From a virus, in IMG/VR virus record IMGVR_UViG_3300027976_000275, positions 1 to 20,237 of that record: DNA of 20,237 bases. One strand, written 5' to 3'. The notes under the pieces are model-generated. The model ran no database searches. It was not told the DNA's origin and was given only the letters and a program-made list of their open reading frames with translations. This document shows, piece after piece, positions 8,262 to 11,558 of the stretch. The position numbers were made by a program, and so were the translations under genes. Position 1 is the stretch's first letter, and the number at the start of each line of letters is the position of its first letter.

Positions 8262-11200
8262 ATGAGTGAGATATACCAAGACATACCTTGTTGGGATAAT
8301 GGTGAATGGACTACAATTAGTTTTGATTCTAGAGAAATATTTGCTAATGCTATAAAAGATATTTTTTCTGAACCGGGTGAATATCACTTTGATGAAGTCA
8401 GTTTATTATTTAATGAGCAGGCCCAAATTTTTAGAAAGCAACATGTGTATTGTACAGCTCCTTTTAAATCAAGAGACTTTGTAACATACTGGGATGATCA
8501 AAAAAATAAGTGTAGAAAAGGAGTTTTTTACATGAAAGATTCTAAAAAATGGTTTATCACTCGTGATTATTACATGTGGTTAAACTTTTTACCAATATTT
8601 GATAAAGAACAACAATTATTTGATTTTGCTAAAATTAGAGATGCTCAGTATCATATGGCTCTGTATGAGCTTCTTGCAGAACTTAATCATCAACATGTAG
8701 CTATTTTAAAAAAGAGGCAGATAGCCAGCTCATACTTTCACATATCTAAACTACTTAATCAATTATGGTTTGAATCAGGGGTTACTCTTAAAATGGGAGC
8801 TAGCTTAAAAGATTATATAAATGAAAAAGGATCTTGGAAATTTATGTCAGAGTATGCCGCATTTTTAAATGAGCACACAGCATGGTATAGACCAATGTCT
8901 CCTGATAAAGTTTTAATGTGGCAACAAAAAATTGAAGTAAGAAAAGGTGATAGAAAAACTGAAGTAGGTCTTAAAGGTACTATGCAAGGAATGTCTTTTG
9001 AAAAAGATCCTACCAATGGTGTTGGGGGACCTGTTAAATATTTTTTTCATGAAGAAGCGGGTATTGCTCCTAAAATGGATCAGACTTATGAGTACATGCG
9101 TCCTGCTATGAAATCTGGTTTAATTACTACAGGTATGTTTATTGCTGCAGGCTCCGTTGGGGATTTGTCTCAATGCAATCCATTAAGAGAAATGATTCTC
9201 AATCCTGAATCAAAAGATATATATGCTGTTGAAACAAATCTTATAGATAAAAAAGGTACTGTAAAACCATCTGGTTTATTTATTCCAGAACAATGGTCTA
9301 TGCCTCCTTTTATTGATGATTATGGTAACTCGCTAGTAAAAGAAGCTTTAAAAGCTTTGGCTACTCAATTTGCTAAATGGAAAATTGATTTATCTCCAGA
9401 AGATTATCAATTAAGAATATCTCAGCATCCTAGAAATATAGAAGAAGCCTTTGCTCATAGAAGTGTTTCTGTATTTCCTCCACATCTTGTTGCAGCACAA
9501 CAAAGAAGAATAGAAGAAAAAGAATATTCTTATGAGTTTTTAGATATTATGACAGATGAGAATGGTAAAGTCATTGTTAAAGCATCTAATAAACAACCTA
9601 TTAAAGAATTCCCAATGACTAAAAAGACTGAAGATAAAACAGGTTGTTTAGTTGTATGGGAAAGGCCTATTGCAGATCCTACTTTTGGACAGTATTATGC
9701 TTCTATAGATCCAGTTTCCGAGGGCAAAGCGGAGTATATAGAAAACATGTTATACACACCAATAGGTAGAAAAAGAATAGGTGATGTTAAAATAGGTGAT
9801 AAAGTAATTGGTTCTAATGGACAATCTATTAACGTTATTGGTGTATATCCACAAGGAATAAAAAAATTATGTAAAATAACATTTAGTGATGGTCATAGTA
9901 TAAAAGTATGTGAAGATCATTTATGGAGTGTAAAATTATATGGTGGTACAAAAGGATTTATTACATTATCTGTAAAAGACTTATTAGATACTACAAAAAA
10001 AATTACTTATAATGGTACGGGAAGAAATATAAAAAAAGAATACAGCATTCATACTTATTATAAAAATAAACAAAATAGAAGTGCTTGGTCTATACCCATT
10101 GTTGAACCTATTACTTTTCAACCTAAAACATTAGAAAAAGTTAATGACAATTTTTCAGTAAATAGACAATCAATTCACCCTTATTTATTAGGAGCTTTAA
10201 TTGGAGATGGTGGATTATCACAAAAATCAGTAAGATTTAGTTCAGTTGATAATGAAATTATTGAAAAAGTTAAAAATACAATTACAGAAGATTTAGAATT
10301 AAAAAAAGTAAAAGGTGATAATTGTGATTATATAATAGTTACAAAAACAGGTAATAGAAATTCATTAACTCAAAAATTAAAAGACTTAGGGTTAATGGGT
10401 TTAAAGTCAAGTCATAAATTCATACCTGATGTTTATAAGTATGCTCTTTGCGCACAAAGAATAATATTATTACAAGGATTACTAGATACAGATGGTTCTT
10501 GTACAAATCATGGTGTAGAATTTTATTCATCTTCTAAACAACTTGCTTATGATGTAGTAGAATTAGTACAATCTCTTGGTGGAATAGCTAAAATTAGAAT
10601 GAAAAAAACTACTCATTTAGATGCTTATATTGTAAGAGTTAATTTACCAAGAGGGATCAGCCCTTTTATGTTATCTCGTAAAAAAGAAAAATATAAATTA
10701 TCAAAAGTGTTTAGTAAATATATTACAAATATAGAATATGTTGACGATGGTGAAGCAGTGTGTATTTCTGTTGATGCACCTGATAATCTTTATGTTACTG
10801 AACATGCTATTGTTACGCATAACACAACAACCTCAGAATCACTATGTTCCATATATGTAATGAAAGCTCCTGTAGAGGTAACTCGTGTTACAGGTATAGA
10901 AACAGAAACTTACATAGAGCCTGATAAAATAGTAGCAGCTTGGTGCGGTAGATTTGATGATTTAAATAAAACACACCAAAGACTAGAATTAATTATAGAA
11001 TGGTACAATGCGTGGACTGTTATTGAAAATAATATTTCATTATTTATACAACATATGATAGCAAGAAAAAAACAAAAATATCTAGTTCCTAAAAATCAAA
11101 TATTATTTCTTAAGGATTTAGGTGCTAATGCTAATGTATTTCAAGAGTATGGTTGGAAAAACACAGGAACATTGTTTAAACAACATCTTCTTAATTATGC

Positions 11201-11558
11201 TATAGAATATACTAAAGAAGAATTGGACGTAGAAACAAAAACAGACGGTACTATTGTAAGAACTACATATGGTATTGAAAGAATCCCTGACCCTATGCTT
11301 CTTGTAGAAATGCAGGAATATGCAGCAGGAGTCAATGTAGATAGACTCGTAGCTTTTTGTGCATTAGTAGCTTTTATGAGAATTCAACAAGCTAATAGAG
11401 GTTATGCTAAAAGAGTTATTATGGATGATTCAGCTAAAAACTTGCAAAAGTCCTCAAATTTGTTTACTTTAAATAAGAGTCCTTTTAGACATATGGGAAG
11501 AGGTCAATCATCAAAGAATCAAAAATTTAAAGGATCTCCTTTTAAAAATTTAAAATAG
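8262..11558 (+). CDS. terL: Large terminase (packaging ATPase/nuclease) carrying an intein
   Basis: 1098-residue precursor; removing the intein (490-854) leaves 733 residues. ATPase part: degenerate P-loop region KKRQIASSY (150-158) and Walker B YFFHEEAG (260-267). Nuclease part (RNase H fold): first acid in YYASIDP (D483), second in VIENN (E922) and third in GVNVDRLVAF (D1027). The product pumps phage DNA through the portal into the prohead and cuts the concatemer. The intein lies six residues after D483, within the joined sequence DPVSEGK/TTTSES, so the nuclease site should be non-functional until protein splicing. It is followed 7 bp later by the portal gene. The terminase identity is strong from motifs, length and synteny with the portal and capsid genes. 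Confidence 0.9.
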   Translation: MSEIYQDIPCWDNGEWTTISFDSREIFANAIKDIFSEPGEYHFDEVSLLFNEQAQIFRKQHVYCTAPFKSRDFVTYWDDQKNKCRKGVFYMKDSKKWFITRDYYMWLNFLPIFDKEQQLFDFAKIRDAQYHMALYELLAELNHQHVAILKKRQIASSYFHISKLLNQLWFESGVTLKMGASLKDYINEKGSWKFMSEYAAFLNEHTAWYRPMSPDKVLMWQQKIEVRKGDRKTEVGLKGTMQGMSFEKDPTNGVGGPVKYFFHEEAGIAPKMDQTYEYMRPAMKSGLITTGMFIAAGSVGDLSQCNPLREMILNPESKDIYAVETNLIDKKGTVKPSGLFIPEQWSMPPFIDDYGNSLVKEALKALATQFAKWKIDLSPEDYQLRISQHPRNIEEAFAHRSVSVFPPHLVAAQQRRIEEKEYSYEFLDIMTDENGKVIVKASNKQPIKEFPMTKKTEDKTGCLVVWERPIADPTFGQYYASIDPVSEGKAEYIENMLYTPIGRKRIGDVKIGDKVIGSNGQSINVIGVYPQGIKKLCKITFSDGHSIKVCEDHLWSVKLYGGTKGFITLSVKDLLDTTKKITYNGTGRNIKKEYSIHTYYKNKQNRSAWSIPIVEPITFQPKTLEKVNDNFSVNRQSIHPYLLGALIGDGGLSQKSVRFSSVDNEIIEKVKNTITEDLELKKVKGDNCDYIIVTKTGNRNSLTQKLKDLGLMGLKSSHKFIPDVYKYALCAQRIILLQGLLDTDGSCTNHGVEFYSSSKQLAYDVVELVQSLGGIAKIRMKKTTHLDAYIVRVNLPRGISPFMLSRKKEKYKLSKVFSKYITNIEYVDDGEAVCISVDAPDNLYVTEHAIVTHNTTTSESLCSIYVMKAPVEVTRVTGIETETYIEPDKIVAAWCGRFDDLNKTHQRLELIIEWYNAWTVIENNISLFIQHMIARKKQKYLVPKNQILFLKDLGANANVFQEYGWKNTGTLFKQHLLNYAIEYTKEELDVETKTDGTIVRTTYGIERIPDPMLLVEMQEYAAGVNVDRLVAFCALVAFMRIQQANRGYAKRVIMDDSAKNLQKSSNLFTLNKSPFRHMGRGQSSKNQKFKGSPFKNLK
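9729..10823 (+). mobile_element. Class 3 intein with LAGLIDADG homing endonuclease, inside terL
   Basis: 365 residues (precursor 490-854). It begins with Ala (AEYIENMLYTP), not Cys/Ser, followed by the block A continuation (KRIGDVKIGDKVIG). Block B is CEDHLW with H553 and W555; block F is AVCISVDAPDNLYV with C834; block G is VTHN ending at N854, followed by +1 Thr855. Trp in block B, Cys at F:4 and Thr before the His-Asn form the WCT triad of class 3 inteins, in which the F-block Cys is the first nucleophile. Two LAGLIDADG helices are visible, LLGALIGDGGL (642-652) and LLQGLLDTDGS (736-746), each with its acidic residue, so the homing endonuclease looks intact. The whole element is in frame. 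Confidence 0.92.

Follow-up and report, generated by a model that had tools for sequence, protein, structure and literature searches.

Class 3 intein beside the predicted nuclease motif I in the large terminase of an uncultured crAss-like phage

The window, i.e., the whole stretch of DNA analysed (20,237 bases of a virus record), comes from an uncultured crAss-like phage. Its crAss-like structural genes encode a major capsid protein (Crass_capsid), a large terminase (TerL) and a portal protein. The terL features described here all lie on the plus strand. The terL open reading frame encodes a precursor of 1098 aa (8262..11558), recognised from its translation and its matches to the terminase large subunit family PHROG 6681 (N-extein 8.7e-40; C-extein 1.4e-12). 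This frame holds an in-frame insert of 365 aa, running from A490 to N854 (9729..10823), which we assign to the class 3 inteins from empty sites, motif conservation, a profile search and an AF2 model. The N-extein (489 aa; 8262..9728) comprises the ATPase domain, the linker and the start of the nuclease domain, as judged from translation, PHROG and fold matching, while the C-extein (244 aa; 10824..11555), delimited by PHROG matches and empty sites, opens with the +1 residue Thr855 and supplies the remainder of the nuclease domain, the joined exteins being 733 aa long. Elsewhere in the window, an open reading frame with collagen-like G-X-Y repeats (781-1323) probably encodes a fibre or appendage protein.

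An earlier note on this DNA had placed the insertion between K489 and T855, with the flanks rejoining as DPVSEGK/TTTSES, and this proved precise: intein-free homologues run gap-free across the junction, and about 150 related TerLs read DPVSEGK|TTTSES without an insert. The upstream half of the site EGK|TTT, i.e., E-G-K, lies at 9720..9728. When viral contigs were scanned with the N-extein, 74 of the 78 readable loci among the nearest 80 were empty, with DPVSEGK directly followed by TTTSES, and four were occupied; a second scan, using a more distant member as the query, returned 78 empty and two occupied sites among 80 loci. The closest comparison is between an occupied contig (L090) and an empty one (L176), which are 99.3% identical over 1000 bases upstream and 99.6% over 735 bases downstream, and the sole difference across the site is exactly the insert, between AAA and ACA. 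Because of the empty sites and this pair, the K489/T855 boundaries are set by comparison rather than by the reading of motifs. The complete intein occurs at the identical junction in 38 other viral contigs, and its removal restores a conserved host protein with the exact junction of the empty relatives. Judged on sequence, the recognition of the insert as an intein goes far beyond chance. A more divergent intein occupies the same terminase site in another contig (L245, from 4464 onward), with Arg for Lys at -1 (EGR|), and this contig ends within the intein.

The residues expected of a splicing domain are all present. Block B contributes His553-Leu-Trp555 (HisB:10 and TrpB:12; 9918..9926), C834 is CysF:4 and the predicted first nucleophile (10761..10763), and Thr852-His853-Asn854 (ThrG:5, HisG:6 and AsnG:7; 10815..10823) close the intein. 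In intein numbering Ala1, His64, Trp66, Cys345, Thr363, His364 and Asn365 are invariant among 47 aligned relatives, the W-C-T triplet is found in 80 of 80 cellular relatives, and the +1 residue is Thr in every copy at the TerL nuclease site. Class 3 inteins have no Cys, Ser or Thr at position 1, carry TrpB:12, CysF:4 and ThrG:5, nearly always have Ser or Thr at +1, and begin their reaction at CysF:4 (PMC5222942, PMC7664689). With Ala1, the triplet and Thr855, the terL insert fits a class 3 intein, the class that the earlier note had read from the same signature, and the residues and positions which that note gave (A490, W555, C834, T852-H853-N854, T855, D483, 9729-10823 and a 733-aa extein) are correct.

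Searches and modelling agree with this assignment. The intein matched known intein structures by phmmer (E=4e-11) and PDB inteins in a profile search (down to E=2e-21), and Pfam LAGLIDADG_3 (PF14528) at E=1e-11. The matches to gp41-1 do not represent a class 1 intein with the WCT triplet, 6riz being an engineered C1A/F65W/D107C variant (PMC7664689). The AF2 model of the intein (mean pLDDT 92.1) matched the folds of PI-SceI, TliVMA, I-DmoI, MchDnaB-1 (M. chimaera) and the M. smegmatis class 3 DnaB intein. The modelled intein combines a Hint domain, which carries splicing blocks A, B, F and G, with a two-motif LAGLIDADG endonuclease. The endonuclease domain spans approximately intein residues 145-322 (10161..10694), as placed by PF14528, the PI-SceI and I-DmoI fold matches and a dN/dS of about 0.25, and it contains the two LAGLIDADG helices noted earlier (LLGALIGDG and LQGLLDTDG), with their acidic residues.

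The insertion falls six residues after Asp483 (9708..9710), the probable first nuclease acid (motif I) by conservation and by a weak alignment with T4 gp17. Asp483 is invariant in crAss-like TerLs, including those of crAss001 and FpV21; conservation also extends to E557 and D662 (spliced numbering). An hhalign comparison to T4 and RB49 gp17, which was not statistically significant, pairs D483 with T4 gp17 D401. The AF2 model of an intein-free relative (L004) was poor (pLDDT 63) and served for fold matching only; in Foldseek this low-confidence model matched T4 gp17 at E=7e-9 and the RB49 gp17 nuclease domain more weakly (E=1e-3). Neither the TerL profile nor the C-extein found a terminase among PDB sequences, therefore the nuclease assignment rests on PHROG, the fold search and motif conservation; the invariance of D483 and the fold match support its reading as the first nuclease acid. 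The further proposal, that the conserved catalytic site is a protected homing target, stands in part. Conservation of the Asp extends across crAss-like phages, whereas EGK|TTT is confined to the environmental clade: the GKTTT part is absent from the five crAss-like terminases aligned from outside it, where gut relatives read DPYDHDQSGTNSLG and similar, and the homing target is therefore conserved within the clade only.

The relatives of this intein in other genes offer a better explanation of the site, as far as sequence can tell, than conservation alone, namely its resemblance to a Walker A GK|T. Nearly all of their junctions lie between the Lys and the Thr or Ser of a Walker A motif, in helicases, PhoH-like ATPases, DnaB-like and RecA-like proteins, terminases of other phages and a Streptomyces protein (GSGK|TMVALRA), the host proteins of unannotated contigs being named solely by the residues that flank the junction. 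The preference for GK|T is strong but not a rule, since a few tallied relatives have no G at -2, PhoH-like proteins are entered at RGR|T, and the terminase copy of mycobacteriophage Phrappuccino has the junction GK|C with a +1 Cys. The RGR|T site, which is not a Walker A GK|T, recurs with a related class 3 intein in phage contigs and in actinobacteria (L161, L317, L326). One further relative (L164, 2396-4363) is gp36 of Bacteroides phage BS-TP3, named a terminase large subunit although the note in its record points to a structural match with DnaB; its intein sits in a short P-loop protein, and the terminase name may come from the intein.

In an unrooted tree from a quick search, a single clade (SH-aLRT 99) unites the 23 copies at the nuclease site of crAss-like terminases, within a family otherwise found at Walker A G-K|T, at PhoH G-R|T or at a few further positions in ATPase domains. 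Their nearest sister is the intein of a helicase-like ATPase on a viral contig (L129), which shares A1, the WCT triplet and THN|TT with the terL intein, but sits at a true Walker A motif (GLGK|TTS) and is about 44% identical. The TerL of the window contains a single GK[ST], that of EGK|TTT, and no other is common to 29 intein-free relatives. The presumed Walker A region of this TerL, ILKKRQIASSY (residues 148-158; 8703..8735), lacks G-K-T/S and is invariant in those 29 relatives; we take KKRQIASSY as the Walker A from its position and a weak alignment with T4 LSRQLGKTT. Because EGK|TTT is the sole GK[S/T] and the protein's own presumed Walker A has no GKT, the intein appears to have arrived at a P-loop look-alike: an intein adapted to GK|T probably settled at the only such mimic that TerL had available. 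As the tree is unrooted, this direction is an inference, and in principle it might be the copies elsewhere that are derived.

Patterns of divergence differ between the intein and its host gene. When 22 occupied terminases were compared in pairs, intein similarity exceeded that of both exteins in 157 of 231 cases; intein identity correlates with extein identity at r=0.13, compared with r=0.63 between the two exteins. At fourfold-degenerate sites, identity is 0.71-0.95 in the intein against 0.40-0.65 in the exteins for 12 of the 15 pairs shown, the other three, all of them pairs with the window itself, having little or no intein-extein difference. By these comparisons the intein is mobile between phages. 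Median dN/dS is 0.25 in the endonuclease domain and 0.14 in the splicing part, values by which both are under purifying selection. The last base before the insert is A in 26 of 28 distinct occupied sites and in 63 of 123 empty ones (Fisher p=3e-5, with related sequences counted); as the sequences are related, this is only a hint of a target preference and no test of it. Two contigs (L085 and L128) have nearly identical terminase exteins but inteins that are only 77% alike, therefore alleles are also replaced at the occupied site. The set of near-identical pairs with occupied and empty sites would also allow the gain, loss and allele replacement of inteins to be studied in nature. In L097 (3070-4164 plus flanks) the upstream flank is 98.7% identical to L176, the intein and C-extein are of the L012 type, and the switch falls at the N-junction; this contig arose either by homing, with co-conversion on one side, or by chimeric assembly. 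The 3′ end of L036 and the 5′ end of L099, both from one sample, share a 36-base overlap at the intein edge, the pattern that coexisting occupied and empty alleles would produce there.

Taken together, the insert is very probably a class 3 intein that is mobile by means of a LAGLIDADG homing endonuclease, entered crAss-like terL at the EGK|TTT look-alike and spread by homing. Its splicing can be proposed from the established class 3 pathway in verified relatives: CysF:4 (C834), aided by HisB:10, TrpB:12 and ThrG:5, would attack the K489-A490 bond, the N-extein would be transferred to the +1 Thr855, and cyclisation of Asn854 would release the joined 733-aa terminase. The endonuclease domain would cleave empty terL genes at GARGGNAAR^ACN or close to it, with an occupied copy as the template for repair; the horizontal transfer and the frequency of A at -1 lend indirect support to such cutting. 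The lineage normally resides at Walker A GK|T sites, and most likely a single entry of this branch into crAss-like terL took place at EGK|TTT beside Asp483, because the terminase has no GKT in its own presumed P-loop and offers only that look-alike of GK|T. Homing would then have carried the intein among diverged phages.

Other readings of the insert were weighed against this one. An Ala at the intein start also suits class 2, in which the +1 residue attacks directly, as in KlbA, and a Ser (S486) four residues ahead of A490 might serve a class 1 reaction. However, class 2 combines Ala1 with a +1 Cys as the first nucleophile and no WCT triplet, whereas here +1 is Thr and the triplet is invariant; S486 belongs to the extein because empty relatives retain S-E-G-K, by which a class 1 intein beginning at S486 is ruled out. 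Splicing by another class is thus highly unlikely. That the insert does not splice, or is a decaying pseudo-intein, is a very slim prospect given that the frame is open and all catalytic residues are retained in 38 other contigs, that dN/dS is low and that both halves of the extein are conserved in a protein expected to be essential for packaging. Equally, the chimeric appearance of L097 and the break at the intein edge between L036 and L099 could raise the suspicion that assembly had fused an intein to terL, but the identical junction recurs in dozens of contigs from many samples, including some of >100 kb such as L128, and an artefact is barely conceivable.

Although its position suggests that splicing here might gate DNA cutting, any intein in an essential enzyme must splice. 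A regulated intein, in which tuned splicing would hold back nuclease activity until packaging calls for it, would suit a location six residues past the first nuclease acid and the uninterrupted ATPase domain of the precursor, and a mycobacterial DnaB class 3 relative is reported as a stress sensor (PMC6195587). Against this, occupancy is patchy, and the phages of about 150 empty relatives manage without the intein, while fast horizontal transfer suffices to explain its presence; we regard regulation as unlikely. A related reading, in which the intein is a switch between motor activities such that the precursor could assemble or translocate but would not cut DNA until splicing completes the nuclease site, is a decidedly doubtful proposition. 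Selfish mobility alone accounts for the patchy occupancy and the fast transfer.

The reading of a mobile class 3 intein that homes at a look-alike site can be set beside known terminase inteins. In a survey of mycobacteriophages the terminase was the commonest intein host, with every terminase intein in the ATPase domain (PMC5050341). These inteins (TerL1-a to -e, TerL6-f and Pham3880-g) share with the present one the host enzyme, class 3 in several cases and horizontal spread; however, their seven published sites all fall within the ATPase domain, whereas the crAss-like one is in the nuclease domain and belongs to phages only distantly related. Among DnaB inteins, those of class 3 (Msm DnaB-1, Mle DnaB and MchDnaB-1) likewise have no nucleophile at position 1, the W-C-T triplet and the Hint fold, but they are helicase mini-inteins, whereas the terL intein keeps its endonuclease domain and lies outside a P-loop (PMC5222942, PMC7664689). 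In the open-licence papers searched, we found no intein of class 3 at motif I of a terminase nuclease; what is new is the nuclease-domain address, the chemistry being already known. This site is a concrete, testable case of an intein lineage changing address, in which the intein would keep its local splice context (G-K before, T after) by meeting it in an unrelated catalytic motif.

A TerL intein is also typical of one group of gut crAss-like phages (PMC7886860). Those of cr53_1, cr56_1 and Dulem virus 42 share the phage group and the gene, but they start with Cys (class 1 type) and lie in the ATPase C-motif region or the linker rather than at nuclease motif I, differences which rule them out as the same element. 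In these three sequences (L256, L257 and L258) the Cys1 inteins occupy two other sites, and in-frame TAG codons occur in both extein and intein.
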